Shown: positions 25,901-57,812 of the stretch, piece after piece
Position numbering within the stretch: the first letter of the stretch is position 1
How the letters are laid out: every line of letters starts with the position of its first letter
Assembly: GCA_034440575.1 (NCBI GenBank)
Contig: JAOTOL010001554.1
Location: 287,001 to 351,000 of the forward strand
Reading direction: 5' to 3'
DNA: 64,000 bases
Source: Imbricaverruca yamaguchii
Taxonomy: Eukaryota; Arthropoda; Thecostraca; Neoverrucidae
Made by a program: the position numbers and the translations under genes
Notes under the pieces: model-generated
Seen by the model: only the letters and a program-made list of their open reading frames with translations
The model's database searches: none
Told to the model about the DNA's origin: nothing

Positions 25901-26689
25901 GCAGCTCGTCACCACCAGCCTCCCGTGTCGTCTGCAGTGCCGGAAGGGGGGGCGTCAGTGTTCGGCAGAATCGACGCCAGTCACTCAACTGCCCCCCGCC
26001 CCCAATGGCGACCGACACTAGTCCCACTTTTCCCAGTCGTTGCCGACGCTGCTGCTCGTATTGGTGTCGCCGTCCATGTCCTCCTTGACCCAGTCGTCAT
26101 CGTTGCTGGACGCTGAAGCAAACGGCGGTCTCAGGCGAACACGTGGCACAGCAGCATTCAAAGATACTGCGGTCAAAAGTCAGGGGGAGAAGTCCGCATA
26201 GTACGAATATGTGCCTCAATATCTGCACCAGCCGAAATATCCTATCCCCGTGGTGTCGCCAGTAGCTGCTCATGCCTTTTAAATACAGCTTCGAAACAAT
26301 CCATACATAGCAGGGATGTCACCATAATCCACAGAACAATATAGGCATACGGCACACAACAGTGTCCGAAAACTGGAGCCAATAAGAAGACAGAACATGT
26401 CATCGGACGCCATTTGAGTGCGTTGTTTTGAAGTGCTGGCCGTGCACATTCGTCCATGTCATGCTTTGGACCTGCTAATGCTGGACAAGACCTGGACTGG
26501 CCGTCAGAAGACGGCCAGACTTGGACTGGCCCAGCAAGACGATATGCAAGACACTAAAGGACTGACCCGAGCGGACATGGAGCCAAGATGGACAGTGGCA
26601 TGAAATAGGCCAGACAAGCTAGTCAGCTAGACAGTACCGGAGAGCGGTCTGGCTGGCGGACGGGACAGCCGACTTGTCTGCAGACACCC
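22966..26689. other. No confirmed gene; GC-rich stretches
   Basis: No exon could be assigned. GC-rich DNA runs from about 24170 to 24530 and 25060 to 25180. A 13-base stretch at 25190-25202 (TTGGTGCCGTGAA) resembles primer binding sites of some LTR retrotransposons, but no LTR, gag or pol was found. On the minus strand, 25830-25950 reads as a plausible exon (REAGGDELLARHLKF) after an AG acceptor-like site, without a good donor. Confidence 0.35.
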
Positions 26690-26995
26690 ACCCAGGAGTG
26701 GAGGGATCAGCCGACATACGCCCGGGAGTGGAGGGGTCAGCCGACATACGCCCAGGAGTGAAGGGGGTCAGCTGACATACGCCTAGGAGTGGAGGGGGTC
26801 AGCCGACATACGCCCAGGAGTGGAGGGGGTCAGCCGACATACGTCCGGGAGTGGAGGGGGTCAGCTGACATACGCCCAGGAGTGGAGGGGGTCAGCCGAC
26901 ATACGTCCGGGAGTGGAGGGGGTCAGCCGACATACGTCCGGGAGTGGAGGGGGTCAGCCGACACCCACCCAGGAGTGGAGGGGGTCAGCCAATCA
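26690..26995 (+). repeat. 30-31-bp minisatellite, array 1 (about 10 units)
   Basis: The unit is built from 'gtcagccgacatacgcc' and 'caggagtggaggg', with single-base changes (cccagg/cccggg, ctgac/ccgac). The same unit forms array 2 at 28350-28600. The frames across it are repeat artefacts. Confidence 0.95.
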
Positions 26996-28345
26996 CGTCT
27001 CATTCTGAATAACACAGATATGAGGGATTAGGTTTTCGTATGTCTTCAGAATTCTGTCGAAATGACGCTTTAGAAGGAGTGACTGGAATATACCACGATT
27101 CTTCTTTATAATTCCGGGAAATACTGGCAATACACCAAAAAATTTCCATTACGAAACCTCTCGTATTGCTGCCATATATTGCCACCATCGTTGGAACTCG
27201 AAATATACACAATGACGTCAAATGCTCGCATATCGGACCCGAGGTCCGTTCTCCAGCCGCATCTCAATCGGAGACTACCGGAGAACGTAATTCTGGACAT
27301 CTCAGACCGTTTTCAGTAATTCTGTTAATTTCATGAAATAGAGCATTCAATTTCGAATTGAAATGCGTAAAATAGCACCAGCTAGCGAACTTCATTGATG
27401 GCAGAAGACATATTTTTTGGAGCCATGTAAATGCTTAAAAAATGCAAAAACCTTGGGTTACTTTGGTATGAATTCCACCTCAATTCGCAAAACTACAGTA
27501 ACCCATCAAGAGAAAAGCATCTGAATAGTAATTTTATCACTTCAGCAACTGCAGTAACTGTGCATGTACGGAGTTTAAACTTTGTCCGGGCCATTTATGG
27601 TCACATTTAGACGTAATTTTAAATAGTTACGAAAATCTGTCATTTCATCATTTGACCACCCTTGGATACGTCGCCGTTAGCAAAGGACAATATCCGTACT
27701 AGAGTAGGAAAATTAACAAATTATTGGGACGGTCTCGCCCGATTCATGTTTTGATCTATGATAAAGACAACGTAATTTCATGATTAGGAACATATATCTT
27801 CAGTGTATTGATTCCCATATAACTGAAGAAAAAAGGTAACACCGTATTGACGTACGAAATCCTATTAAAGGCGACAGGAATTGGGGGTCAAGCAGCGGTC
27901 TTGAAATTGTGTAAATATTGCAGTCATGTTTACACAGGGATCACGCTTTGACCGCGCGTATCGCCTCACAGTTTTGTCCCCTTCCCTTTGTGCGAAGATC
28001 TTTGTACCGATTGGTTGTGTATACTCGGGTTGGGGCAAAGTTTTGAGAGCTTTCCGGAGAAAAACCTAATAAGTGCGAGTGAACTAAGTGGGCGTGATTG
28101 AAGTGACTTAAGGTCCAGTAAAGGGGTGTAAGTATGCTGGTAAGTAAGCGGCTTGTATGCTTTTTATCAATCATCTTTTTTGGGCTCAGACACCAGTAGG
28201 TTTCTGCTTTTTTTAGGGGGTGGGGGTCCGAGGCCAATTTTTTTTTATTCTCCGACTCCATGGGCAGGAATATCTTCTTTTTCTTGGAGGGCTCCGATAC
28301 ACATTTTTTATTCTCAGACTACAGGTCAGCGAACCACTTTTCCCA
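26996..28345. other. No gene seen between the two minisatellite arrays
   Basis: A/T-rich unique DNA. No exon of the BSDC1 gene was recognised here, although its 3' end should lie at or below this region. Confidence 0.45.
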
Positions 28346-28349
28346 CGCT

Positions 28350-28605
28350 GGCCGACATACGCCCAGGAGTGGAGGGGGTCAGCCGACATACGCCCGGGAG
28401 TGGAGGGGGTCAGCCGACATACGCCCGGGAGTGGAGGGGGTCAGCCGACATACGCCCAGGAGTGGAGGGGGTCAGCCGACATACGCCCAGGAGTGGAGTG
28501 GGTCAGCCGACATACGCCCAGGAGTGGAGGGGGTCAGCCGACATACGCCCGGGAGTGGAGTGGGTCAGCCGACACCCGCCCAGGAGGGGAGGCACATCAG
28601 CACAT
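28350..28605 (+). repeat. 30-31-bp minisatellite, array 2 (about 8 units)
   Basis: Same unit as array 1. Decayed units continue at intervals to about 28876, up to the donor site of BSDC1 exon 7. On the minus strand the unit (CTCCTGGGCG then TGTCGGC) aligns with the first intron bases after that donor (ATCCTGGGCGGGTGTCGGC). Confidence 0.95.
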
Positions 28606-28888
28606 CAGACTGGTCGGCCAACATCAACTCAGGACGGAAAGTGGTCAGCACAAACGATACCCGCCCAGGAGTGGAGTGGGAGGGGGATGGTCAGCACAGA
28701 CGACTGGTCGGCCGACACCCGCCCACGAGGTTGGTTGGTTAGTCATTTGGGCTTATGGGCGCATCGACTGCTTCGGTCATACAGCGGTCATACAGCGCCC
28801 ACCGCCCAGGAGGGGGTGGTGGGTCAGCACATCTGACTGGTCGGCCGACACCCGCCCAGGATGGGATGGGTCAGGACAGCAGGCTCAC

Positions 28889-29023
28889 CCTGAGCCGGCG
28901 AGTGGGACTCGGGCCTCTCGTCGCCGGAGCCGCTCTGCGACCGCTGCTGCACCTCGCGGTCGTACTCGTCCAGCAGCTTGTCGGCCTGCGCGTCCGTCAA
29001 CTCCACATGGTGGCTGAAGTCCT
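28889..29023 (-). CDS. BSDC1: BSDC1-like gene, exon 7 (last one found)
   Basis: The exon is 135 bp. It starts after GTGTGCGGCAG (acceptor) with AG, which completes the split codon G|AG from exon 6, and ends CAGG before the donor GTGAGC. It encodes EDFSHHVELTDAQADKLLDE followed by a charged, glutamine-rich helix (YDREVQQR) and a Ser/Glu-rich tail (SGSGDERPESHSPAQ). It follows the WEEE segment of exon 6, which fits the acidic linker after the BSD domain in BSDC1 proteins. The exon ends in phase 1 and has no stop, so at least one more exon must follow toward lower coordinates. The acidic, Trp-rich C-terminus expected in this family was not found. Confidence 0.85.
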
Positions 29024-29029
29024 CTGCCG

Positions 29030-29135
29030 CACACGTCACGTCACACGACACACATCACGTCACATGTCAGACTGTCACGACAGGTCGGCAGTCTGACTGC
29101 TCTGACGGCAGTCGGCAGTCTGACTGACTGCTCAA
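29030..29135. repeat. Short CAGTC/GTCAGAC-rich direct repeats upstream of exon 7
   Basis: 'cggcagtctgact' occurs at about 29088 and 29110 with several shorter GTCACGTCACA and GTCAGAC variants around them. It lies in intron 6 directly upstream of the exon 7 acceptor (minus-strand sense). Confidence 0.6.
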
Positions 29136-31960
29136 CAGCATGAGGGCCCCACCAGCTACATTCAGGCTACAATCACGTGCCAATGAACATAGAACATGAC
29201 GGATGTGGGTGAATGAGGCTGGAGACAGATGGGAACCCGACAATGAACGGATGGGGAAGGTGGAGGGGGCGGATACCTTCAGTCTTTGGACGAGCATAAC
29301 ATTAACTTTACGGGTATCGCATGAAAAAGACCTCAAAATGGTTCTTGTCTACTCGCACCCGCACCCGCACCCACACACACTTTAGGACAGTTCCTATGCT
29401 CTTGATAAGACATATTGAGACATGCATTGTCACATACCCCTGTCGACCTTGCACATTATTAATTAAACGTCAACTTTATATTCATTTCGGATCAATGCAG
29501 CTTGATTACAAACCACTAGTTTCTTTTCAGCACTCCTTGGTTTTGAATCCCACTAGCGTCTCCAGATATATCTGCAACCACACGAACGTTACACAACCAG
29601 TAGCCGTTGATGCGCCCATAAGCCCAAATAATCAAATAGATCTGCATCCCCATTCCCCTTAGGACGGTGCCTGCCAACAGAAGCTCTACCGGGCAACAGG
29701 CGGCACGGTGCCGACAAGCTGGACGGCCGCGGCTGAGCCGCCACCGACTACCAGCGAGAGAGCGGAGACACAAACATCGGACACGCATCCGTCGGCCATT
29801 GCAAACCACAAACAGCATCATCGCATGCAATGGCAAATCCGAAGAAAAGACGGCAGTCGTGCAAACAAAACAAGGTGTTTTTCTCTAGGTGGCCGAGTAC
29901 ACCAGCAGGAGAAACGTTCAGACTGATGCGTGTATGGCCGTGAATTTGTAATACGAGAGGAAACATGCGACACCAGCACAACAATGCCAACAAAAGACTA
30001 CATGTAGATTAAAAAGCGAAGTTAGTTATTAGGGCTTTAGGGCGTACATTAATGAGCGAAGAACTTCCACCTCAACAGCACGCCGACACAGGAAGAAGAG
30101 CTAACTATGATCAATAAAATAAAGCAGCCAATTCACCAAGCGACGATGGTGTACTTATTTCATTACAATGGCATTCTCTCATTTCCACTGCATTTATTGA
30201 GATTGCAGAAGTACCATGAAACTGTTCGGTGCTAGACTTGCTGTAATGGGGTGGATCTGTTGGTTCCACCTGTGCACTTAACATGGAAGTGGTCTCTTAA
30301 CTCAGACTGGCACATCAGAGCGATGTTACACATCGGATCTAGCTTGCTCGGGTTTTGGTACAGAAAGAGCTCCAGCGAAAGTATTTTCACCCAAGCCGGA
30401 AATTAATGGAACGTTTTGTGCAAAACCGCAGTACAATGCAATTCAAACATTGTCGATCCTTAGTTAATACCCAGCTAGACCTCGCAATCATTTTTAGCAC
30501 TTCTTTTAGACAAGAAACACATGCTACCCGGCCACTTGCACGGGGCAGCTAAATTACAATGAGATGACTTGATGTAACCAGTGTAGTGAAGCTCATTTTT
30601 TAAAAGAACATTTGGAAGGGCATGAGATCAAGGCGACAAAATCGGCTATGACGTCGAAGGAAGTCGACAATACGACAGGAACAAAATGACGCAATTGGTG
30701 ATTTTTTTGTCTGCAAAACGGTGACATCAAGAGGGAGTGTGGCCAAACTAGCATGCACTACTGGAGCTGAATGCAGCAACATTTCATGTCAATTCGAGAT
30801 CAGAACTGTGTTCCAGGAGGCTATACAAGCTTCAGTTAGGTACTGGTCACCACTTCAAATCTGAAATAGGGCAATGAATGAAAAAGCAAGAGCCTGGAGA
30901 TCTGTAGGAATGACCAATCATAAATGCAATGTCAGACTTGATTGCAACAAGTTTTGTCATAATACCAGTGGTTGGTACGTGGTAATGGCATCAAATTGCT
31001 CCGGTATGTTGCCAGTACCTTCACTTGTATCCTCCGATTTATTAAAGAAACGTGGAACCCACAGCAACTCAGCTGACCAGAAATGAGACAAACAGGCGAA
31101 ATTATACGATTAAAGCGATAATGAGGGATAACTTACTTTTGTCCTCAGAGCCTGCGTAAGACATGAAAGGAAAATATTATCACTTTATTGATTTCACACA
31201 GGGAAGCGTACGCATGGGTTTGCACCCCAGAAGAGCAAATGGAAGACACACCAAAGGAAAAGCTCACAGCACAGTCCGTATTCGTCAAATAATACCTGCG
31301 AGACACAAGGAATTTAAGCACATCAATGTATCCCCCGGCCAGCAATGCGACGTCTGCCAGTGGCTATAGATTCATTCCAATGCAGTACAGACTGACAACA
31401 TTGTTCATATTCAGGAAAGTCAGGCCACAAAAGAAACATTTACGTTTTCTAAATGAAAGCAAAGAGAAAGCACATGAGATGTTAACAACATTCACAATGT
31501 TGTCCTCGGGGAAGTGTGTTAGGCGAAAAACAGCGATCCGACCAGCTGGCTCTCCGGCCTTCGTCAGCTGCCTTGTACTTAGAAAGGCAAGGCTGGGATA
31601 TTTCTGCTGATTTTTAACAGTAGCACACCAGCTCAACAGCACATTTCGGAGTCCTTCGGATCTGGTGCTGTTTGAGCCCAGATGTTTGGATCAGATGCAA
31701 GCCATTACGAACAGCGTTATTCAGGACAAGTAATCGCATGCTAGAAGTGGATAACACTCGGATCTTCTGAGCACATAAACCCCATGATCGCGGGCCATCA
31801 CTTCTACTTTACATCCCATAATCAAAGTACACGAGACAGTTAAATGTCTGCAGCACCAAATCAAGATTACCACCACATAGGCGGAGACGGACCACTCAAA
31901 TGCGGCACAGCTACATCTTCTAATGGAACGACTTCCGAAAACGTTTTAGCTGCTTCGTGT
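29136..31960. other. Intron 6 of the BSDC1 gene, main body, no other gene seen
   Basis: Intron 6 spans 29024-32951 (3928 bp), much longer than introns 2 to 5. In this part no coding exon, RNA gene or recognisable transposon was found. Confidence 0.5.
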
Positions 31961-31969
31961 CGAATCCGA

Positions 31970-32195
31970 CGGCGTCACTAAAATTAACGTACAAGACTTC
32001 CAGCGCGATCTGATGTCTATCTCCGTGTTGTAAATACAATGAACGTACAGGACTTCCAGTGCGATCTCGTGTCCATTCCGGCGGTGTGACTAAGATTAAC
32101 GTACAGAACTCCCAGTGCGATCTCGTGTCCATTCCGGCGGTGTGACTAAGATTAACGCACAGGGCTTCCAGCGCCATCTTAGTATGGCCAGCTGC
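31970..32195. repeat. 56-bp tandem repeat, about 3.5 units (intron 6)
   Basis: 'gattaacgtacag' and 'cgatctcgtgtccattccgg' recur at about 56-60-bp steps (for example 32064-32093 and 32118-32142). Units near the edges are more diverged. Confidence 0.8.
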
Positions 32196-32425
32196 TCGGA
32201 CGTTGCGATGGCCGATACTCTCGCCTGAGCATTGGGATGCTTTCAATGCCCCCGTTTACCCGCACTCGACTCAAACGCCCCTCTATGTGACATGTGGCAT
32301 TACCGTCCATCACGGTGACTCCTCGCCGCCAGTGAGGCTGTGAAGGTCAGATGACCCCCGGTGGGGTGTACTCGCCAGCGACTATGTCACTAATCGCTAA
32401 TAAATTAACATGCCACCAGGTGGGG

Positions 32426-32468
32426 TGGCGTGTTAGTTTAGCGACTCTGTCGCTAAACTAACACGCCA
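32426..32468. repeat. Perfect 20-bp inverted repeat with 3-base loop (intron 6)
   Basis: Arms 32426-32445 and 32449-32468 are exact reverse complements around TCT. An imperfect relative of the arm ('cgactatgtcactaatcgct') lies just upstream at 32379-32398. Both flanks carry CCAGGTGG-like motifs. It may be the core of a small foldback element. Confidence 0.85.
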
Positions 32469-32951
32469 GGTGGCAGTGCCATCCGCTGTGAAACGCGCAA
32501 CATCTAGCGTAGAATCCGCCAGGAGATGCCAACTATATTCACTCCTAGCATGCAATTACGAACTTAACATACCAGGCCGGATAACGGAGGTGGCATATCA
32601 TGTCGGATCTATCACCCAAAACCCGGGCTTGAATCCCACCCGTGCCAAAATAATCAGACACACAGACACAAACCAGCCGGCAGAAGCGTTGGCCGATCCG
32701 TACCTCTTATTAGGGAAAATAACAGAGCGCGGCCGGAGAAGCAGCAGGACGGAGTGCAGTGCTCCACACAACACACTCGCAGAGCACAGCAGTCCAGATA
32801 TTGCCAGCATCGTACGCAGCTACGTGCTATCGCTCGAGTCGCGTCACGTTAGTGTTGCCTGAGAAAACTGGGCGTGAGGCGCTGGCACTTTCAGACACCC
32901 GGCACGTGCCGTTGCCGGCGCCAGCATGAACGGGCGCAGCAGGTGACATAC

Positions 32952-33070
32952 CTTCCTCCCAGGCGACCTGCTTCTCGGCAGCGCCGGGAGTGCTCATCTG
33001 ATCGGCGCGTTTCCGCAGCTCCTCGCGCTGCTTCTCCCTCTCCTCCGCCAGGTGGACCCGGAATAGGTAC
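32952..33070 (-). CDS. BSDC1: BSDC1-like gene, exon 6 (end of BSD domain, charged helix)
   Basis: The exon is 119 bp. It starts after the acceptor GCCGAGCAG with G, completing AG|G (Arg) from exon 5, and ends at GAGGAAG before the strong donor GTATGT. It encodes YLFRVHLAEEREKQREEL, then RKRADQMSTPGAAEKQVAWEE. The first residues complete the BSD domain signature FW-x-RY-x-(F). The rest is a charged helix and acidic stretch, as in BSDC1 relatives. Junction phase matches both neighbours. The acceptor plus the first exon bases are repeated upstream in intron 5. Confidence 0.92.
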
Positions 33071-33270
33071 CTGCTCGGCGTCGGTACAACACCATCATAC
33101 ACCACACCGACGCCTCCCCCAGCTACACCAGCACAGATACCTGCTCGGCACCGATACCGCACAGACCCCACCAGGTATACAGAAACAGGTACCTGCTCGG
33201 CACAGGTACCATACCATCATACACCCAACGAACCCCACCAGGTACACCGGAACAGGTCCAGCACAGGTAC
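33071..33270 (-). repeat. Tandem copies of the exon 6 acceptor and exon start (intron 5)
   Basis: On the minus strand, GCCGAGCAG followed by GTACCT or GTATCT occurs at the real border (33070), and again with the pseudo-exon starting at 33140 and 33192. A more diverged copy lies near 33255. The following bases (TTCCGG...CCACCTGG in the exon, TTTCTG...TACCTGG in the copies) also correspond. Spacing is 52-70 bp. Confidence 0.85.
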
Positions 33271-33344
33271 TGCGAATCGAGCTGTATTTGATCAGAACTG
33301 AATAATGCCGGTGGCACACATGAGCAGATCTGAACAATGACCGA

Positions 33345-33535
33345 TCTCCGAAGAAGACGTGATCGACACTGACTGATGTCCAAAGCGGACATGATCGACA
33401 TGACCGATGTCCAAAGCAGACATGATTGACATGACCGATATCCAAAGCGGACGTGATCGACATGACTGATGTCCAAAGCGGACGTGACCAACACTGAGCG
33501 ATCTCCGAAGTGTACGTTACCGACACTGGCCGAAG
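33345..33535 (-). repeat. 31-32-bp minisatellite next to the exon 5 donor (intron 5)
   Basis: About six units contain 'gatgtccaaagcggac' and 'gtgatcgacatgac' variants. The outermost unit (33340-33370, 'ccgaagaagacgtgatcgac') resembles the reverse of exon 5's end ('ccagaagaggacatggctgac', 33553-33573). Confidence 0.8.
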
Positions 33536-33547
33536 AGGACGCCTCAC

Positions 33548-33759
33548 CTGTGCCAGAAGAGGACATGGCTGACCTGGGCCGGCACCAGTGTCGTGTACTG
33601 GTCCAGGATGGCCCGGTTGGACGCCAGCAGGTCGCTGAGCTCCGGCTGGCGCGCCTCCAGGTCCAAATCGGCGCCCCACAGCTCGTAGCGCACCCGCTCG
33701 GCCTCGGCCGGTTCAGAGAGGTAGGTGTGCGGGTCGGCCGCCAGCCGGTGCAGTTCCGT
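33548..33759 (-). CDS. BSDC1: BSDC1-like gene, exon 5 (most of the BSD domain)
   Basis: The exon is 212 bp. It starts after the acceptor CCGCCGCAG with ACG GAA and ends TGGCACAG before the donor GTGAGG. It encodes the core of the BSD domain: HRLAADPHTYLSEP, YELWGADLDLEARQPELSD, LLASNRAILDQYTTL, and VPAQVSHVLFWHR. The BSD fold is a three-helix bundle with a conserved aromatic pair (here FW). The DPxTY...EP start and the VPxxVSxxxFWHRY end are typical of BSDC1 and related BSD proteins. The last codon is split AG|G with exon 6. Codon third positions are GC-rich, unlike the intron DNA around it. Confidence 0.93.
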
Positions 33760-34352
33760 CTGCGGCGGTCGTCACGGCACAGACGTCAGAGGAAACGGCA
33801 AACACCAGCCGTCGGCAGCCAGCCTATAACTGCTAACAATTCGGCAGTGAAATGTCACGCCATGCATCAGAGTACTGTCAAGGACCTTATACGACGAAAG
33901 CTGTTTTCGGGTAACGACTGGTCATACGTCACAAGGACGATTTAAAAGTGTTCATTAATTGGTGCTGTAGCCACTGAAATCGCCCCAGCTGGCTTCCATA
34001 TAAGTCCCACTCAGATACACTTGACCATGGAGTACTGAAGCATCACTGCATCAGCCATCGCTTGACATAAAATTCTCAAAAGTGGTGCGGAGAAGTCCAA
34101 AAACATCATTAACAGGCTTCCCATCATCATTGAGAATGGACCCGACCAACCCCGCACGTGTCAGTTAGTGATATGCTGAGCTCCACCAATGTTCGGCAGC
34201 GCTGTACTGCCAAGCAGTCCGGCATAATCTCCAGGCCGCAGTCGCTGATATGTAGGCCACCGACACTGGCCTTCCGGCCACCGTCACTGACATGTGGCCA
34301 CCGTCAGTGACCAACGGACTATCGTCACTGAGCCGCGGCCACAATCACTGAC

Positions 34353-34511
34353 CTGCAGTCTGTCCAGCAGCACTGGCTGTCCGTCGCGCAGTATGTAGGC
34401 CTCGGCGTCGTCGTCCTGCATGGTGTCGGGCGTGAACGCCTTGTGCACGTGCGTCAGAAAACCCGACACAGACCTCTTCACCTGCGAGGCGGCCGATGAC
34501 TCGTCTTGCAT
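34353..34511 (-). CDS. BSDC1: BSDC1-like gene, exon 4
   Basis: The exon is 159 bp (53 codons), in phase 0 at both ends. It starts after the acceptor TTCTACCGTCAG with ATG CAA GAC and ends CTGCAG before the donor GTCAGT. It encodes MQDESSAASQVKRSVSGFL, THVHKAFTPDTMQDDDAE, and AYILRDGQPVLLDRLQ. In BSDC1 relatives a comparable segment (a helix ending in a short T-F-x-P motif) lies between the N-terminal helix and the BSD domain. The acceptor is the innermost member of a tandem array of 34-bp copies of itself. Confidence 0.9.
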
Positions 34512-35056
34512 CTGACGGTAGAACAGCGTGTCAGACGTCCAGCATCTGACGGTAGGACAGCGTGTCAGACGTCCAGCATCTGACGGCAGGACAGCCCGTC
34601 AGACGTCCAGCATCTGACGGCAGGACAGCGTGTCAGACGTCCAGCATCTGACGGCAGGACAGCGTGTCAGACGTCCAGCATCTGACGGCAGGACAGCCCG
34701 TCAGACGTCCAGCATCCGACGGCAGGACAGCCCGTCAGACGTCCTGCATCTGACGGCAGGACAGCGTGTCAGACGTCCTGCATCTGACGGCAGGACAGCG
34801 TGTCAGACGACCTCCATCTGACGACAGGACAGCCCGTCAGACGTCCTGCATCTGACAGCAGGATAGCGTGTCAGACGTCCAGCATCTGACGGCAGGACAG
34901 CGTGTCAGACGACCTCCATCTGACGGCAGGACAGCCCGTCAGACGTCCTGGATCTGACGGCAGGACAGCGTGTCAGACGTCCAGCATCTGACGGCAGGAC
35001 AGCGTGTCAGACGACCTCCATCTGACGACAGGACAGCCCGTCAGACGACCTGCATC
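34512..35056 (-). repeat. 34-bp minisatellite made of exon 4 acceptor copies (16 junctions)
   Basis: The junction CCGTCAG|ATG, or a variant, recurs exactly every 34 bp from the real border near 34511 up to 35053 (16 steps). On the minus strand each unit reads GGACGTCTGAC, a short pyrimidine-biased stretch (CTGTCCTGCCGT), then CAG|ATG. One unit (near 34713) has lost the AG (CGG). The outermost one is incomplete. Fourteen internal copies keep the AG. Confidence 0.95.
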
Positions 35057-35431
35057 TGCCACAAGAAAGCAAGAAAAAGAGGAATACATGATTTTAGAAG
35101 ACTGTATTGTACTCTTGGTTGTTTTTTTTAAGCTTATGGGAGCATCGACTGCGTTGGTCATACAGCGTCCATGTACTCTAATTGTACTCTAAAAGGAATG
35201 GTGAGAAAAAACCTAAATATGCCAGGATCTCGTTTTTGGCTGCCTTTAGTTTTCATGCTGTTTTGATGATAGAGCAACATTGGGGGTGGAAAACTTGCAT
35301 GACCTTGGGGCGTATGAGTCCATAATTACTTCCAGTTCGGTGTTCCATCTCCCATCCAACCACACTTATGCTGGGACATTGACAGCAATATGTTACGATG
35401 ATAACGGTGTGAGTGTTAACATCAGTCGTAC

Positions 35432-35569
35432 CTGCAAGGAGTCTCGCAGCGAGCGTGAGGTGGAGCTGAGCATAGTTCCTGTCTCCGACAGCACACTGGA
35501 CGTCTCGGTCTGGACAGCTTCAGACAACTCGCTCAGGTCCTTCTTTACCATGTCGTACACCTCGGCAGA
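35432..35569 (-). CDS. BSDC1: BSDC1-like gene, exon 3
   Basis: The exon is 138 bp (46 codons), in phase 0 at both ends. It starts after the acceptor CTGTGTTGGCAG with TCT GCC GAG and ends TTGCAG before the donor GTACGA. It encodes SAEVYDMVKKDLSELSEAVQ and then TETSSVLSETGTMLSS. The phrase S-x-E-x(3)-VKKDL-x-E corresponds to the conserved N-terminal helix of BSDC1 proteins (a KS-x-E...-RDL-x-EF-type pattern). The rest is a Ser/Thr-rich amphipathic helix. Confidence 0.9.
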
Positions 35570-36363
35570 CTGCCAACACAGTCAGAGGTCAGACTGACTG
35601 TCAGACACCCCGGTACACTGTGGGAAGATCACAGGCCAAAGGGCTGAAGATGGATACACTACCCTGGCTATGGCTGTCCATATGTCAAGATGGAGACGAA
35701 GAAGGCTGTCTAGGTGTTTCCACTTTGTCATGCAAGAGGTGTGATAAAGCTCCAGTTTATACAAATATATAAACACCAATGAAAGCCCTATTACTTTGCG
35801 TGAATAGGACATTTTAATTCGTGAATAGGACACTAATTCGCTGAAGAACCAAAATTTCAGGAATTAATCCACTGTGAATTAAAATATAGCATGGAATTGG
35901 CGGAAATGAAATGACCCGAGGGGCAAAATGATTGATGCCCTATATACGTTTCTGATGCACAAAATCATCGACAGGTACATTGAAGTCAAGAATCCTCTGA
36001 GAACCCTGTCCGGTACACGCGAATTTTAACCTGCTATACCTGTATTTGACTAAACCAATGGTTTGTGTAAGGATGTCTTGTAAAACAAAATGTTATTGCC
36101 TCTTAGCTTCCAGTCTACAACATATTCTGAGTTGAAACACTTCACCGTCCTACTACGAATTGGCTCTTCCCACTAGTTAGTAATGTAGGGGACTGGGATC
36201 TGGAAAATATCAACATTCACAGTGATGCTGCACTTACATCTCCCAGACCGTACCAAATGTAGTCCGCAATGGAACTCCAGGACAACTATGTCCCATGGCC
36301 TGCATTGAACAGTGACAAATGCACTGACCGATCAAATAATATCGAGGTTCAAATGCCACTTAC

Positions 36364-36451
36364 CTTATACTTGGCTACTTCTAGGGATTTGGCCCAACCA
36401 GAGAGCCAGCCAGAGGCAACGTTCGCAAGTCCAGCCATCATCTCCTCCATG
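36364..36451 (-). CDS. BSDC1: BSDC1-like gene, exon 2 (Trp-rich helix)
   Basis: The exon is 88 bp. It starts after the acceptor GGTTGGCAG with C, completing AG|C (Ser) from exon 1, and ends AAGTATAAG before a consensus donor GTAAGT. It encodes SMEEMMAGLANVASGWLSGW and AKSLEVAKYK. The two Trp residues and the following AKSLEVAK fit the short N-terminal WW-x-x-W...AKxKS segment of BSDC1 relatives. The polypyrimidine tract upstream is weak, so the acceptor is less certain than the donor; the phase match with exon 1 supports it. Confidence 0.85.
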
Positions 36452-36669
36452 CTGCCAACCACATTCACATGACACTCGGTTACACAACATATGACACCTA
36501 ACACAGGCACATGGCTCTCAGCTACATGACACTGCATATCATATGATGCAGAACACCAGTCACATGGATCTCAGCTATACATGTGACACACATCACATAA
36601 ATGGCAGTCAAGAAATTATGAATAGGTGCTAATCATATGCCACAAGGTTGCGAATCATGACAAATGGCT

Positions 36670-36790
36670 GACCATCATATGTCAGATGGCTAACCATCAC
36701 ATGTCAGATGACTAACAATCACATGTCAGATGACTAACCATCACATGTCAGATGACTAACCTTCACATGTCAGATGACTAACCATCACAT
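36670..36790. repeat. 22-bp tandem repeat, about 5 units (intron 1)
   Basis: 'gtcagatgactaaccatcac' recurs from 36682 to 36789 with few changes. It runs directly into the 62-bp array. Confidence 0.9.
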
Positions 36791-37350
36791 GCCAAACCTA
36801 CACAGACTGTGGGGTGTGCAGCCGAGTGGTCAGGGCCACACCCGATGTCCGAGCCAAACCTACACAGACTGTGGGGTGTGCAGCCAGTGGTCAGGGCCCA
36901 CCCGATGTCCGAGCCAAACCTACACAGACTGTGGGGTGTGCAGCCGAGTGGTCAGGGCCACACCCGATGTCCGAGCCAAACCTACACAGACTGTGGGGTG
37001 TGCAGCCGAGTGGTCAGGGCCACACCCGATGTCCGAGCCAAACCTACACAGACTGTGGGGTGTGCAGCCGAGTGGTCAGGGCCACACCCGATGTCCGAGC
37101 CAAACCTACACAGACTGTGGGGTGTGCAGCCGAGTGGTCAGGGCCACACCCGATGTCCGAGCCAAACCTACACAGACTGTGGGGTGTGCAGCCGAGTGGT
37201 CAGGGGCACACCCAATGTCTGAGCCAAACCTACACAGACTGGAGTGTGCAGCCGAGTGGTCAGGGCCACACCCGATGTCGGAACCGAAGCTACACAGACT
37301 GCGGAATGTGTAGCACAGTGGTCAGAGCCCCACCTGATGTAGTAGCGACA
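36791..37350. repeat. 62-bp minisatellite, 9 units (intron 1)
   Basis: Units start 'gccaaacctacacagac' at 36791 and repeat every 61-62 bp, with the last two diverged. Because 62 is not a multiple of three, frames of 137-184 residues stay open in all three plus-strand frames. These are artefacts. Confidence 0.95.
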
Positions 37351-37509
37351 AACACATTTTTTTCTTAAAAAACTAATGTAGTGCTAAAATATCGAAGTGT
37401 TCCATGTGACTGGATGCAACAGACAAAACATAACGGCGCCGTGAGCAGTGACAGCAACAACAGTCATTGTTATATTTGATACCAGGTGATTACACACATA
37501 TATACACAC

Positions 37510-41274: not shown

Positions 41275-41755
41275 CATGCAAGGATCGAACATTTTGTAGC
41301 AAGAACCCCAGCAGACGGATGCGTGTTTGCTACCCGGGAGCGCAGGTGAAAGATGTTAGGGATAGGCTGGAGGGAGTAATGAGGGGAAGTGGAGAGGGTG
41401 CAACGGTAATTGTGCAGGTTGGAGTTAACGATGTAGGAAAAAATAATACAGAGGAAACAATGAAAGCCTATAGGGCTTTGATAGGTAGTTTAGCAGGAAG
41501 TAGGAAAAGAGGAGTGGTGACATCCATCCTCCCTATGGTCCATGCAAGCATGGAGTGGTATTCGAGGGCCATTGGGCTCAATACCAGGGTGGCCAACATT
41601 TGTAAGGAGCTTGGGGTGCAGTTCTTGGATTTGTGGGGGAGTTTTGGGGGAGGACGGAGATGTTTGCTTTAGATGGATTACATCTGAGCAAGAGAGGAGT
41701 GGAATTGCTCAGCAATAGGTATGAGGAGGCTCTCAACAGGAAACAGGGAAACTAG
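41275..41755 (+). pseudogene. LINE B ORF1, SGNH/GDSL-type esterase end
   Basis: The frame shows VIVQVGVNDVGKNN (G-x-N-D block of SGNH hydrolases) and LGVQFLDLWGSF. A frame change near 41645 is followed by LDGLHLSKRGVELLSNRYEEAL, holding the D-x-x-H block. The N-terminal coiled coil and the GDS block are missing through truncation. The stop is TAG at 41753-41755. Confidence 0.82.
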
Positions 41756-41769
41756 GCAGGACATGGGGG

Positions 41770-44602
41770 GATGTAGCTGATAAAGAGAGAAGCATAGCAA
41801 GCAATGGAAGGAATAATTTATCATGTTTTTATGTCAATGCCAGAAGTGTTAGGAACAAAATTGGGGAACTGCATGCATATATGTTGTCTGAACAGCTAGA
41901 TTTGGTGTGCATAACAGAAGCATGGGTTAACGAAAGCATGTTTGGAGACAACTTGCAAGAATTTGAATTGACAGGCTACAACATGCATGCCTATCAAAGA
42001 GAGGCAAGGATAGGAGGTGGCATTCTCTTGTATGTTAGGCAAGTAATGAAATGTCATTCCATAGAGGATGGAGTACATAGTGCAGGAGTAGAATCTTTGT
42101 GGTTAGATATAATTCTGAAGAATGGAACAAAATTTAGGATTGGGGCATTCTATAGACCTCCAGACCAGAATGAAAACACTGACAGGCTGATGCAGGAAGA
42201 GATAAGTAGGAGAGTACAGGAGAGAACTATTTTGTTGGGGGATTTCAACATAGCAGGATTGGGAAACAAAACAATAGGTGTAAGCAAATCAGAAAGATGT
42301 TTCATGGCTTGTTTTGAGGACAATTTCTTCTTTCAAATGATACACGAGCCTACAAGGGAAAATAAAATATTAGATCTAGTGCTTACTAATGAGGAAAATT
42401 TTGTGCAAAATGTTAACGTAGGAGAGACCTTTGGTAATAGTGATCACAACATTATACACTTCTCATTATATGTTGGAAGGGTAGCAACCAACAGAACATT
42501 GATTCCGAATTTTACAAAAGGGAATTACAGTGAGTTCCGGAGCTTCCTAAGTGAAATTAATTGGGAAGTCATATTGAATGGCTTAGATGCTTATGAAATG
42601 TGGACAATGATAAAAGATAAGCTATTTCAGGGTCAGGATAGGTTCATTCCCAGTAGGCAAATTAGATCAAACAGGGTTAAGCACCCTTCGTGGCTGACTA
42701 GGGAAGTTAAGCAATTACTGGACTCAAAGAAACAAGCATTCAAGAAACTAAAAGATACTAACTCTGGGTTAAACCTAGAATCATATAGAATAGCTAGAAA
42801 TAAAGTTAGGAGATGTGTTAGAGCATCTAAAAGACTTGCTGAAATCAACTTTGCTCGAGAATGTTCAGCAGGTAATGCTAAGAGATTCTTTAGCTTCTAT
42901 AAATTTAAGGCTAAAAAGTGTAGTGTAGGACCACTGGAGGTAGATGGGGAAATAGTGGTTGATGATTGCGACATTGTGGAATCCCTAAGCAAGCAATTCT
43001 CATCAGTCTTCACTAAAGATAATTCTGGTACAATAGGAACATCTGTAGGCCATGCCATGGCAGGTGATATGCTGGAGGATCTTACAATAACTACAGAAGC
43101 CGTAGAGAAGCAGTTGCAGAATATAAAACCTAATAAAGCTTCCGGACCAGATGAAATATATGCTAGGATCTTAGTAGAGTGTGCTAAAGCTTTAGCAACT
43201 CCCCTAGGTATCATTTTCAGGCGATCTATGGAGTATTCAGAAGTACCTGAAGATTGGAGAAATGCAAGTGTAGTACCAATTTTCAAAAAGGGAAATAGGA
43301 AGAGTGTAGGAAACTACAGGCCAGTCAGTTTGACCTCATTAGTTTGCAAAGTACTAGAAAAGCTGGTTAAACAGAATGTTCAGATTCATCTTGATAGGCA
43401 CAACCTTTTAAGGGATACTCAACATGGATTTCGATCTCAAAGGTCTTGTTTAACTAACCTATTGGAGTTCATTGAGTATGTTACCAAAGAAGTAGACAAT
43501 GAAAGCAGGATGGATGTTGTGTACTTGGACTTTAGCAAAGCTTTTGATAAAGTTCCACATGGAAGGTTAATTCATCAATTACAACAACATGGGATTGTAG
43601 GAAAAGTTCTACATTGGATTGAAGCATGGTTGCAGGGAAGGAAACAAAGGGTAGTATTGAATGGATGTAAATCTGGTTGGAAAGATGTTCTGAGTGGAGT
43701 GCCACAGGGCTCTGTTCTAGGGCCCCTCCTCTTTATCATCTTTGTGAACAACATTGAAGTAGGGCTGAGGAATAAGTGTTCAAATTTGCTGATGACATCA
43801 AGCTGGTAGGAGTGGCTAACAGCAGAGATCAATCTAGTAATATTCAACTAGATTTTGACGACCTAAAAAAGTGGGCTGATCAATGGCAGATGACTTTCAA
43901 CTATGATAAGTGTAAGGTTATGCATATAGGGTCTGCAGGCGAGACATTCAGTTATAAAATGGGAGGGAGGGAACTGGATGTTATTGAAGAGGAAAGGGAC
44001 TTAGGTGTGTTGGTCTCAAAAGACCTTAAAGCAGAAAAACAATGTATCTCAGCTAGAAATAGGGCACTCAGAATGCTGGGACTCATTAATAGAAGTGTTA
44101 AATATAAGAGCAGGGAAGTCATGAAAAAGCTGTACTTAGCATATGTGCGGCCCGGCCCCACTTGGAGTACTCTGTACAAGCATGGAGCCCCTACCTAGAA
44201 AAGGATATAGATATGTTAGAAAGAGTCCAGCGCAAAGCCACTAGACTCGTCAGTGGATTAAGTAACTTAGAATATGGAGAAAGGCTTAATGCATTAGATA
44301 TGTACTCACTCAAGTATAGGAGATTAAGGGGAGACATGATTGAAATGTACAAAATTGTTAGAGGGCTAGATCAGGTCAATTTGAATGATGCTCTGCAGTT
44401 TAGAGTATCCCATAGGGGTCATCAATTCAGGTTAGACAAAATGAGGTGCAGGACAGTTAAACGACAACAGGTCTTCAGTCAAAGGGTTGTTGACCAATGG
44501 AATAGGCTGCCTGCTGATGCAGTGGGGAGTCCCTCATTGAATGTCTTTAAAAGTAGGGTGGATAAATTTTTTAGACAGGAAAATGTTGTTTTTGAATTCT
44601 AA
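41770..44602 (+). pseudogene. LINE B ORF2, endonuclease and reverse transcriptase, two frameshifts
   Basis: The protein would nick target DNA and copy the LINE RNA into it. The endonuclease has VNARSVRNKIGEL, DLVCITEAWVNES, IGAFYRPP, TILLGDFNIAG, LDLVLT and NSDHNIIHF, all catalytic positions intact. The reverse transcriptase follows with PNKASGPDEI, VVPIFKKGNRKSVGNYRPVS, TQHGFRSQRSC, VVYLDFSKAFDKVPH and SGVPQGSVLGPLLFI. A one-base change near 43775 shifts the frame just before the catalytic FKFADDIKLVG. A second shift near 44150 precedes EYSVQAWSPYLEKD and LERVQRKATRLVSG. The C-terminus VVDQWNRLPADAV ends at TAA 44600-44602. Without the two shifts ORF2 would exceed 900 residues, a usual length for CR1-like elements. 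Confidence 0.92.
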
Positions 44603-47942: not shown

Positions 47943-49070
47943 ATAAGTGATGACCAAACCACTGTTCAAATGTGATTTTAGATTAGGCTCATGGCGTACA
48001 TCAGTTAATCTGAGTCCAGCATATATCATGAGACTTCACATCACCCATTACATACTGAGAGCTCACCTCAGAGTCAGAGCTCAGAGCTCAGCACAGAGTT
48101 AGCTCTGGCAAAAACTACCCATGTAAATAGCGTTGAGCAATATATGCCCGCGTTAATTATTAGTCAAAGCAGTCCCAGGTTAGAGGAAACATGTGTACCG
48201 TGCTGATACAGTGGATCTGGTGCCCAGCCTTGGGCACCAGAATGGCCAGGCTCGGTTCGTTATAATAACGCCGCGTGACTGTGTCCGAATATTTCCGCCT
48301 GACATGACCTTGCAAAAACAAAGGCTTGTCAGACAATATAGACGACCGAATTCCTGGCCAATAATTCCGTCATTATTGTGATTTCGTGCAGTGTAACATT
48401 GGCAGATGGTTCTGGCCATGATAAAGTGATAATCATCATTTGTATTTAGTACATTGTTCAGCTTGTTGAGGTAATGAAATCGTCCAAGGTGCAGCTAATC
48501 AGTTTCAAGTTAATTGTATCACGGTTTAATGTGCATACATATTTTGCATGCAGCGAGGAAGGCCAGGGAAGGTGAGTGGATGCAAATGCTATAGACATAC
48601 AAGCATAGCATGGCGAAGCCCGGTTCGCGAACCTTACCCATTCACCTATATCATCATTACATACAAGTAATCGGCTTAGGACTGAACTTGACTTGACCCT
48701 TTCTTTTCAAATGTTGCCACACCTGCATATCAACATCCATGGTTTGCAAGGTCACATTCTTCAGCCGCCGTTGCAGAATTTCTGAATCTGACATTTCTGA
48801 GCACATCCTTCAAACTGTGTACCGTGCGGCGATACAGTGCAGGATACATTCCAGGTGCAGGAGGGATGCAGCAAAGCAGGCGGCACTCCAGAGCGATTGT
48901 TCCCAGCCGCATTGTGGTGTGTGCAGGACGGGGCGTATTTGAGCCAGGTCAGCAGGCCGTGGCGCTCCAAGACTGCCGCCCAGGGCCGACACGTCACAGC
49001 ACCGCAACCCAGGAGTCACGGCCGGCCGCTGCCGTCTGGGCCGACCATGACCGGACCACCAGGGCTCCCT
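47943..49070. other. No gene seen
   Basis: Unique DNA before the 41-bp array. No exon, RNA gene or transposon was recognised. Confidence 0.4.
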
Positions 49071-49071
49071 G

Positions 49072-50815
49072 TCACCTGAGCCGGCCCGGACCGAACAGAC
49101 AGGGCTTCCTGTACACCTGAGCCGGCCCGGACCGGACCACCAGGGCTCCCTGTACACCTGAGCCGGCCCGGACCGAACAGACAGGGCTTCCTGTACACCT
49201 GAGCCGGCCCGGACCGGACCACCAGGGCTCCCTGTACACCTGAGCCGGCCCGGACCGAACCACCAGGGCTCCCTGTACATCTGAGCCGGCCCGGACCGAA
49301 CAGACAGGGTTCCCTGTACACCTGAGCCGGCCCGGACCGAACCACCAGGGCTCCCTGTACACCTGAGCCGGCCCGGGTCGAACAGACAGGGCTCCCTGTA
49401 CACCTGAGCCTGCCCGGACCGGACCACCAGGGCTCCCTGTACACCTGAGCCGGCCCGGACCGAACCACCAGGGCTCCCTGTACATTTGAGCCGGCCCGGA
49501 CCGAACAGACAGGGCTCCCTGTACACCTGAGCCTGCCTGGACCGGACCACCAGGGCTCCCTGTACACCTGAGCCGGCCCGGACCGAACCACCAGGGCTCC
49601 CTGTACACCTGAGCCGGCCCGGACCGAACCACCAGGGCTCCCTGTACACCTGAGTCGGCCCGGACCGGACCACCAGGGCTTCCTGTACACCTGAGCCGGA
49701 CCGGACCGAACAGACAGGGCTCCCTGTACACCTGAGCTGGCCCGGACCGAACAGACAGGGCTCCCTGTACACCTGAGCCGGCCCGGACCGAACAGACAGG
49801 GCTTCCTGTACACCTGAGCCGGCCCGGACCGAACAGACAGGGCTCCCTGTACACCTGAGCATGCCCGGACCGGACCACCAGGGCTTCCTGTACACCTGAG
49901 CCGGCCCGGGTCGAACAGACAGGGCTCCCTGTACACCTGAGCCGGCCCTGACCGGACCACCAGGGCTTCCTGTACACCTGAGCCGGCCCGGACCGAACAG
50001 ACAGGGCTCCCTGTACACCTGAGCATGCCCGGACCGGACCACCAGGGCTTCCTGCACACCTGAGCCGGCCCGGACCGAACAGACAGGGCTCCCTGTACAC
50101 CTGAGCCGGCCCGGACCGGACCACCGGGGCTCCCTGTACACCTGAACCGGCCCGGGTCGAACAGACAGGGCTCCCCGTACACCTGAGCCGGCCCTGACCG
50201 GACCACCAGGGCTTCCTGTACACCTGAGCCGGCCCGGACCGAACAGACAGGGCTCCCTGTACACCTGAGCCGGCCCGGGTCGAACAGACAGGGCTCCCTG
50301 TACACCTGAGCCTGCCCGGACCGGACCACCAGGGCTCCCTGTACAACTAAGCCAGCCCGGACCGAACAGACAGGGCTCCCTGTACACCTGAGCTGGCCCG
50401 GACCGAACAGACAGGGCTTCCTGTACATCTGAGCCGGCCCGAACTGAAAAGACAGGGCTTCCTGTACATCTGAGTCGGCCCGGACTGAACAGACAGGGCT
50501 CCCTGTACATCTGAGCCTGCCTGGACTGAACAGACAGGGCTTCCTGTACATCTGAGCCGGCCTGGACTGAACAGACAGGGCTTCCTGTACATCTGAGCCG
50601 GCCCGGACTGAACAGACAGGGCTCCCTGTACATCTGAGTCGGCCCGGACTGAACAGACAGGGCTCCCTGTACATCTGAGCCTGCCTGGACTGAACAGACA
50701 GGGTTTCCTGTACATCTGAGCCGGCCTGGACTGAACAGACAGGGCTTCCTGTACATCTGAGTCGGCCCGGACTGAACAGACAGGGCTCCGTGCACACCCC
50801 GGCCGGACGGGCAGG
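49072..50815 (-). repeat. 41-bp minisatellite, about 42 units
   Basis: The plus-strand unit contains 'agggctccctgtacacctga' and 'gccggcccggaccg', then either GAACAGAC or GACCACC. These two unit types alternate irregularly, and toward 50400-50800 units change to 'tgtacatctgag' and 'cggactgaacagac'. Because 41 is not a multiple of three and no stop occurs on the minus strand, frames of 719, 690 and 424 residues stay open in all three frames. Confidence 0.97.
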
Positions 50816-55300: not shown

Positions 55301-57812
55301 TCCACTGTGCTCGGTACCACACCGTACCACTATACTGGGTACCACACCATACCACTGTACTGGGTACCACACCGATACCTGTACTCGATACCACACCGTA
55401 CCACTGTAGTCGGTACCACACTGCACAACTGTACTTGGTACCACACCGTATCACTGTACTTGGTACCACACCGTACCACTGTAGTCGGTACCACGCCGTA
55501 CCACTATACTCGGTACCATACTGCACCACTATACTCGGTACCACACCGTACCACTATACTCGGTAGCACACCGTACCACTATACTCGGTACCACACCGTA
55601 CCACTGTAGTGGGTACCACGCCGTACCACTATACTCGGTGCCACACTGCACCACTATACTCGGTACCACACCGTACCACTATACTCGGTACCACACTGCA
55701 CAACTGTACTTGGTACCACACCGTACCACTATACTCGGTACCACACCGCACCACTATACTCGGTACCACACCGTATCACTGTACTTGGTACCACACCGCA
55801 CCACTGTAGTCGGTACCACGCCGTACCACTGTACTTGGTACCACACCGCACCACTGTAGTCGGTACCACGCCGTACCACTATACTCGGTACCACACCGTA
55901 CCACTGTAGTCGGTACCACGCCGTACCACTATACTCGGTACCACACTGCACAACTGTACTTGGTACCACAGCGTATCACTGTACTTGGTACTCGGTACCA
56001 CACCGAACCACTGTACTCGGTACCACACCGTCCACTGTACTCGGTACCACACCGTACCACTGTACTCGGTACCACACCGTATCACTGTACTCGGTACCAC
56101 ACCGTCCACTGTACTCGGTACCACACCGAACCACTGTACTCGGTACCACACCGTCCACTGTACTCGGTACCACACCGAACCACTGTACTCGGTACCACAC
56201 CGTCCACTGTACTTGGTACCACACCGTACCACTGTAGTCGGTACCACGCCGTACCACTATACTCGGTACCACACCGTACCACTATACTCGGTAGCACACC
56301 GTACCACTATACTCGGTACCACACCGTACCACTGTAGTGGGTACCACGCCGTACCACTATACTCGGTGCCACACTGCACCACTATACTCGGTACCACACC
56401 GTACCACTATACTCGGTACCACACTGCACAACTGTACTTGGTACCACACCGTACCACTATACTCGGTACCACACCGCACCACTATACTCGGTACCACACC
56501 GTACCACTATACTCGGTACCACACTGCACAACTGTACTTGGTACCACACCGTATCACTTTGGTACCACACCGCACCACTGTAGTCGGTACCACGCCGTAC
56601 CACTGTACTTGGTACCACACCGTACCACTGTAGTCGGTACCACGCCGTACCACTATACTCGGTACCACACCGCACCACTATACTCGGTACCACACCGTAC
56701 CACTATACTCGGTACCACACTGCACAACTGTACTTGGTACCACACCGTATCACTGTACTTGGTACCACACCGCACCACTGTAGTCGGTACCACGCCGTAC
56801 CACTATACTCGGTACCACACCGTACCACTGTAGTCGGTACCACACCGTACCACTATACTCGGTACCACACCGTACCACTGTAGTGGGTACCACGCCGTAC
56901 CACTATACTCGGTGCCACACTGCACCACTATACTCGGTACCACACCGTACCACTATACTCGGTACCACACTGCACAACTGTACTTGGTACCACACCGTAC
57001 CACTATACTCGGTACCACACCGCACCACTATACTCGGTACCACACCGTACCACTATACTCGGTACCACACTGCACAACTGTACTTGGTACCACACCGTAT
57101 CACTGTACTTGGTACCACACCGCACCACTGTAGTCGGTACCACGCCGTACCACTATACTCGGTACCACACCGCACCACTGTAGTCGGTACCACGCCGTAC
57201 CACTATACTCGGTACCACACCGTACCACTGTAGTCGGTACCACGCCGTACCACTATACTCGGTACCACACTGCACAACTGTACTTGGTACCACAGCGTAT
57301 CACTGTACTTGGTACTCGGTACCACACCGAACCACTGTACTCGGTACCACACCGTCCACTGTACTCGGTACCACACCGTACCACTGTACTCGGTACCACA
57401 CCGCACCACTATACTCGGTACCACACCGTACCACTATACTCGGTAGCACACCGTACCACTGTAGTGGGTACCACGCCGTACCACTATACTCGGTACCACA
57501 CCGCACCACTATACTCGGTACCACACCGTACCACTGTAGTCGGTACCACGCCGTAGCACTATACTCGGTACAACACCGTACCACTATACTCGGTACCACA
57601 CCGCACCATTATACTCGGTACCACACCGTACCACTGTAGTCGGTACCACGCCGTACCACACCGCACAACTATACTCGGTACCACACCGTACCACTGTACT
57701 CGGTACCACACCGCACCACTATACTCGGTACCACACCGTACCACTGTAGTCGGTACCACGCCGTACCACTATACTCGGTACCACACCGTACCACTATACT
57801 CGGTTTAACACT
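55301..57812. repeat. 25-bp minisatellite, about 100 units, with higher-order pattern
   Basis: The unit is 'cggtaccacaccgtacc' plus 'actatact' or 'actgtact/agt'. Nearly every unit holds GGTACC, a palindrome. A composite block containing 'gtagtgggtaccacgccg' and then 'ctcggtgccacactgcacc' occurs at about 55604, 56332 and 56876, so multi-unit segments were duplicated. Frames up to 282 residues are artefacts. Confidence 0.97.

Follow-up and report, generated by a model that had tools for sequence, protein, structure and literature searches.

Minisatellite-like tandem copies of intron–exon borders, many of them with AG/GT, have been described as mirages in the amphioxus globin genes BflGb6 and BflGb9 (PMC3087553, in excerpt). 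In BflGb6 the copies comprise an intron's 3′ end together with the beginning of the exon, with six units in one haplotype and three in another, and according to the same excerpt RT-PCR found regular splicing of the globin mirages undisturbed (PMC3087553). A later paper, as far as its excerpted text goes, adds a mirage in PGBD5 and cites Adh (Adh3) and TnC (PMC3902484). The array that we describe here, in the gene BSDC1 of a barnacle, has in common with these excerpted cases that it is a tandem, minisatellite-like array at an intron–exon border and that its unit contains an exonic part. Its unit measures 34 bp, compared with 150–160 bp in BflGb6 and a reported 10–72 bp in Adh3. It is unlike the amphioxus mirages, as the excerpts present them, in that it occurs in a barnacle, has 16 copies, leaves a strong acceptor upstream, carries an in-phase stop in every copy and is known from DNA alone. 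On this comparison the array fits among the known but rare mirage-type border repeats and would be new outside the chordates.

A further relative is human. The CBS variant 844ins68 is a 68-bp duplicate of an intron–exon junction in which, according to excerpts of two papers, the distal of the two sites is strongly favoured and the upstream copy is removed (PMC2630376, PMC1334203); the excerpt of PMC2630376 calls the duplicated sites “splice donor sites”. In the descriptions available, 844ins68 is a single duplicate whose behaviour was shown in people, whereas BSDC1 carries an array. The title of a 2002 report by Romano on 844ins68 is said to speak of a 3′ splice site. CBS also has a 31-bp VNTR, which the title of Lievers 2001 reportedly links to reduced enzyme activity and which is said to lie at an exon–intron border and to repeat a donor. 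Its unit is similar in size to that of the BSDC1 array, but the repeated site would be a donor there and is an acceptor in BSDC1.

In the literature searched, not all of which was aimed at this question, we met no comparable border array in barnacles or other arthropods. The nearest arthropod case is a family of prawn lectins whose 30/33-bp repeats lie within exon 2, the alternative acceptor described being in exon 5 (excerpt of PMC7536079). The word “minisatellite” is absent from the main texts, in the form available, of the barnacle genome papers PMC8917513 and PMC8416341.

The window, that is, the whole stretch of 64,000 nucleotides that was analysed, carries the gene on its minus strand. 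A sequence-only reading had identified this gene as BSDC1 and had placed the acceptor of exon 4 and its phase; protein matches, the domain PF03909 and the open frame support all of these. Exons 3–6, when joined, encode a BSD-domain protein (PF03909), and exons 2–7 are open in one frame without a stop. The protein of exons 3–6 shares 82% identity with Logan protein P0001 (320 aa) and 80% with the BSDC1-like protein of Pollicipes pollicipes over 87% of the query. These two are among the 10 of 446 candidate proteins that passed; the remaining eight are proteins of shrimps, crabs and a mantis shrimp at 44–47% identity. GC3 is 0.73–0.91 across exons 3–7, and the gene is apparently intact. Exon 2 lies at 36451-36364, exon 3 at 35432..35569 (donor TTGCAG|GTACGA, ending in phase 0), exon 6 at 32952..33070 and exon 8 at 26131-26021 (73% to the Logan protein), all on the minus strand; a candidate first exon at ~37.7–37.5 kb on the same strand is a weak match (29%, E 0.18). 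Exon 4 occupies 34353..34511 (minus strand, 34353 being its last base), is 159 nt long, starts in phase 0, encodes MQDESSAAS...LLDRLQ and ends at the donor CAG|GTCAGTG.

Across the exon 3/4 junction, SLQ|MQDESSAA aligns without a gap to TLQLQDESSAA of Pollicipes, and the proteins of malacostracans are as long here as that of the window. This equal length in Pollicipes and the malacostracans argues that CAG|ATG is the right place for the exon 4 acceptor. Logan protein P0001 is two residues shorter exactly at this junction, which suggests that the acceptor may have moved by 6 nt in the lineage of P0001. Two protein searches found no protein with near full identity to this BSDC1; use of the last acceptor is therefore deduced from the open frame alone. 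The sole candidate for a truncated isoform among public proteins, P0011 (87 aa), was rejected, as it is apparently exon 3 of another sequence read past its end.

The array consists of 16 full 34-bp units in tandem (35055-34512, minus strand) and ends exactly at the first base of exon 4, 34511. Tandem Repeats Finder (TRF) gives it as 34508-35058 with period 34, 16.2 copies, 90% matches and 0% indels. This row agrees with our cutting of the units in register with exon 4, in which the count of 16 comes from one haplotype/assembly, and both bear out the proposal that 34-bp units resembling 3′ splice sites are fused to BSDC1 exon 4. The consensus unit is ATGCAGGACGTCTGACACGCTGTCCTGCCGTCAG, from which each unit departs at 0–4 positions: unit 16 has the most differences (four), unit 1 has three, and the remaining units, by count, have 0–3. 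Units three apart are the most alike (94.3% vs 90.8% for neighbours; permutation p 0.0004), which argues that the array grew partly in 102-bp steps. A 102-bp higher-order period can be seen by eye in 34512-35055 (minus strand), with one slip near units 6–8.

Junctions in the 34-bp register number 17, namely exon 4's own, the 15 between units and 35056. The spacing of 34 bp had thus been read correctly, but the number given for it, 16, was too low. AG is kept at 16 of the 17 junctions (within 34512..35055, 15 of the 16 units have their final CAG); the exception, after unit 7 (34716..34749), reads CGG at 34716 and is the upstream copy that had been said to lack its AG. All 17 junctions read AG|AT or GG|AT, and one unit begins ATC rather than ATG. 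CTGAC, which had been called branch-like and placed shortly before CAG|ATG, is indeed found 5′ of all 16 unit acceptors, its A lying 20 nt before the first base after the AG. Competing AG junctions upstream of the exon's own number 15: the 14 within the array that had been claimed, and 35056, which that claim left out of the total.

In all 16 units CTGAC contains a TGA, and it stands in the phase of exon 3. Read in this phase, each of the 16 upstream junctions gives four residues and then TGA at codon 5, exactly as had been predicted for upstream copies (ATG, three codons, TGA and a truncated protein). The stop of a decoy lies at least 178 nt before the donor of exon 4 (34 + 159 − 15), and hence NMD would be expected under the exon-junction rule. 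Since every other acceptor truncates the protein, the predicted acceptor of productive mRNA is that of the terminal unit (34512..34545, minus strand; CTGACACGCTGTTCTACCGTCAG|ATG).

What precedes the array is not an incomplete outermost copy, as had been supposed. It differs from the unit at 21 of 34 positions and is unrelated sequence with a classical acceptor of its own: TTCTAAAATC, a possible branch region, is followed by a long pyrimidine tract and by TTCCTCTTTTTCTTGCTTTCTTGTGGCAG at 35056 (35056..35099, minus strand, ending TGTGGCAG). Thirteen of 16 positions before this AG are pyrimidines, compared with 9 or 10 at the unit acceptors and 7–10 at other BSDC1 acceptors. The window has 3,755 AGs on its minus strand; counting 35056 itself, 58 of them reach its number of pyrimidines, and two reach both that number and its length of run. 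A strict yUnAy branch motif is absent within 50 nt of 35056; CTGAC occurs at every unit acceptor. With the best pyrimidine tract among the acceptors of the gene, 35056 is probably the ancestral acceptor of intron 3. The array hence sits between a strong, probably ancestral acceptor and the exon.

The unit begins much like the exon it adjoins. Nine of the first 10 bases are common to the two (CAG|ATGCAGGACG in the unit, CAG|ATGCAAGACG at exon 4). When the comparison is anchored at the AG, the exon flank of only 1 of 7,406 other AG sites in the window is as good a match to the unit, and 2 of 7,406 are as good when both flanks are summed. For the intron flank alone 677 of 7,406 sites do as well, which is the chance level, AG and CTGAC being present in the unit. 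Without anchoring, the likeness of the unit to the empty site is equalled by 18 of 4,211 windows under one scoring and by an unremarkable 230 of 4,211 under a softer one. From the likeness of the exon flank, the unit probably took its exon part from the start of exon 4. The sequence-only reading had the array seeded on an exon border; this is supported for the exon-side start, and for the intron-side part the likeness is no better than chance. That the unit is a copy of the old pyrimidine tract is likewise unsupported. At the border of intron 5 and exon 6 (33071..33270, minus strand) there is a degenerate tandem of copies reading GCCGAGCAG|GTACCTgtt-like (GCCGAGCAG|GTACCTGTT-like), spaced 70, 52 and 61 nt, with a score of 42, where the best of 300 shuffles scores 27. 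The exon 6 acceptor would thus be a second, weaker border repeat in BSDC1.

We consider it fairly probable, without regarding it as settled, that the array is a mirage-type border minisatellite, in which an exon-4-like 34-bp unit was amplified to 16 copies between the old acceptor at 35056 and the exon. A unit beginning like exon 4 and ending in CAG would have been multiplied in tandem at this place. The array would be removed as part of intron 3, and productive mRNA would use the AG of the last unit. Use of any of the 15 upstream AGs would lead to a premature stop and, if the exon-junction rule holds, to an NMD substrate. The array would then probably be a tolerated passenger, kept uniform through unequal exchange partly in three-unit (102-bp) blocks, and not a regulator. 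Several observations speak against this reading. First, no unit comes near 35056 in the strength of its pyrimidine tract, and a scan that proceeds linearly to the first AG would end at 35056. Second, the Logan protein lacks its two residues exactly at this junction. Third, the overlap with a border is not significant on its own in a gene so rich in repeats. Fourth, no derivation from the old border can be recognised on the intron side of the unit, and the softer unanchored test gave an unremarkable result.

One could also argue that the array masks itself, the RNA folding through GTCAG and CTGAC so that the decoy AGs are hidden and the exon's own AG stays open. We hold this idea only tentatively, as a possibility. 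The GTCAG of an inner acceptor would pair with the CTGAC of its own or a later unit, which would hide most decoy AGs. The first AG to be exposed would be the one at the exon, and it could serve as partner to the old branch region and tract. The last GTCAG would remain open for two reasons: no unit follows that could offer it a partner, and the CTGAC of its own unit is already occupied, in most cases by the GTCAG two junctions upstream. It is rather doubtful that the array in this way structurally selects its own last copy, with the old branch region and tract brought to it; if it did, this could explain the tolerance of border minisatellites that have reached a few units.

Predicted folds partly agree with self-masking. 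For 601 nt of the array ViennaRNA gives −289.4 kcal/mol (z −8.4 against 20 shuffles, which do not preserve the repeats). Averaged over 84 contexts differing in flanks and in the span allowed for pairing, the terminal AG comes out unpaired at 0.79 and the other AG junctions at 0.07, and in 71 of the 84 the terminal AG is more open than every other AG junction. When the old site is folded along (48 contexts), the old branch region is unpaired at 0.88, the old AG at 0.23, the decoys at 0.08 and the terminal AG at 0.84; in 43 of 48 the terminal AG exceeds the old one, and the mean shortest path from the old branch region to the terminal AG is 91 steps, compared with ~580 nt along the strand. Units shuffled by column reach the terminal-minus-inner difference in 2 of 120 runs, and only 8% of 243 AGs in the region are more than 0.85 unpaired. 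Exon 6 points in the same direction more weakly, its real AG being unpaired at 0.52 against 0.25, 0.01 and 0.15 and the highest in 41 of 48 contexts. In the 18 contexts in which partners were traced, GTCAG pairs with the CTGAC of its own unit (for example at 0.79–0.84 at the junctions after units 2, 4 and 6) or of the next unit (0.52–0.78 after units 10, 13 and 16), and other GTCAGs have other partners. The terminal CTGAC finds its partner mostly in the GTCAG that lies two junctions upstream, which leaves the terminal AG open at 0.86. A scheme in which each acceptor pairs with the CTGAC of the next unit throughout was rejected, the partners lying mostly in the same unit or in one further on.

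Much also speaks against self-masking, which is a post hoc idea built on thermodynamics only, in a model that contains no proteins. The terminal AG is not the most open in 13 of the 84 contexts, chiefly those that combine a 15-nt exon flank with wide pairing spans; an exon flank of 40 nt with a span of 1000 brings its unpaired value down to 0.00–0.01, and one 200-nt context gives 0.11. The real array is equalled by three of 40 exon shuffles and by 35% of 40 runs in which the order of the units was shuffled. In a single-unit array the terminal AG is closed (0.00), and in one of two units it is at 0.55, so that masking cannot have been of help when the array began. An eight-unit array has one inner AG open at 0.92. 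In the real array some inner AGs leak (after unit 8, for example, 0.25–0.72), the terminal unit's own CTGAC is predicted to be paired, and the path from the old branch region is much shorter to the old AG (mean 33) than to the terminal AG (91).

It is unlikely that we are looking at an ordinary intronic minisatellite that ends at the exon by chance, even though the surroundings would suit it. Each of the seven BSDC1 introns (26113-37509, minus strand) has at least one TRF row, with periods of 20–62 bp. The rows in intron 2 (2.3 copies) and intron 4 (3.5 copies at 69%) are weak, and intron 7 has two arrays of one 31-bp unit. We compared the 14 borders of BSDC1 with 300 shuffles, and only the acceptors of exons 4 and 6 have border-spanning copies above all shuffles. 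Copies at acceptor 7 also exceed all 300 but are intronic only; the match at donor 4 is partial (score 28, equalled by 1 of 300 shuffles) and falls short of spanning the border under our rule; and the other ten borders stay within the shuffles, at least 35 of 300 being as good. With two borders qualifying among 14, border copies as a rule throughout the gene were rejected. Among pseudo-borders outside array interiors, 3–6% of 1,334 positions score as well, and two of 14 borders correspond to a binomial p of 0.06 (score 40), 0.11 (score 35) or 0.22 (score 28). In a region rich in minisatellites, two straddled borders of 14 are hence not improbable in themselves. What an ordinary minisatellite does not account for is that both edges of the array lie at an acceptor in exact 34-bp register, that one of these edges is among the two best tracts of 3,755 AGs and that unit and exon begin alike. 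What speaks for an origin at the border is accordingly the register, together with the old acceptor and the likeness to the exon; the count of borders does not carry this case.

The donor of exon 4, GTCAGTGATTGTGGCC, is followed by degenerate ~20-bp copies, GTCAGTGACGGTGGCC (34241-34352, minus strand), possibly a border repeat on the donor side. Elsewhere in the window there are a 25-bp array of ~100 copies (55302-57804) and a 41-bp array of 42 copies (49060-50798). A non-LTR retrotransposon frame lies at 41725-44602 on the plus strand, with Exo_endo_phos and RVT_1 in 41725-43806 and a continuation in other frames to ~44602, and by eye there are similar retrotransposon frames elsewhere in the window. 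Outside 22–46 kb and the arrays there are 92 open frames of at least 80 aa; the longest 45 look by eye like transposon pieces or chance, and no comparison gene was seen among them by eye.

A regulatory array of poison acceptors seems improbable to us. Upstream acceptors would then be used at a measurable rate, and the number of copies would set the fraction of productive BSDC1 mRNA. The 15 upstream AG junctions, each leading to TGA at codon 5, would lend themselves to this, and with 9–10 pyrimidines of 16 the unit acceptors are similar to other BSDC1 acceptors (7–10). Yet homogenisation alone would keep both the AG and the stop, and published mirages are reported, in the excerpted texts, not to disturb splicing (PMC3087553, PMC3902484). 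Copy-number tuning of BSDC1 expression is thus unsupported.

We give just as little credence to another reading, that 35056 is the acceptor mainly used. The main product of this allele would then be a truncated BSDC1, or else a protein lacking its N-terminus, with translation restarted at the ATG of exon 4. It is true that 35056 has the strongest tract and that an in-frame ATG opens exon 4. However, the coding sequence downstream is open and conserved, with its GC3 of 0.73–0.91, as one would expect of a gene that makes the full-length protein. Three further candidates were rejected: recursive (ratchet) splice sites, a class with AG|GT at the junction, since AG|GT occurs at 0 of 17 junctions; an exon with a distant branch point and an AG-exclusion zone, a class with no AG between branch point and acceptor, since 15 upstream AG junctions (35056 included) precede the exon; and the array as an intron of its own, since no good donor was seen at its start, the GTCGTC of unit 16 being poor by eye.

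As a mirage-type border minisatellite, the array in BSDC1 would extend such arrays from amphioxus to a crustacean. It also offers a natural test of how the spliceosome chooses one acceptor among ~16 that are nearly identical. If the structural idea of a self-masking array were true, it would help to explain how a gene survives when one of its splice sites is amplified, and arrays of this type could point to a way in which intron borders are shifted.
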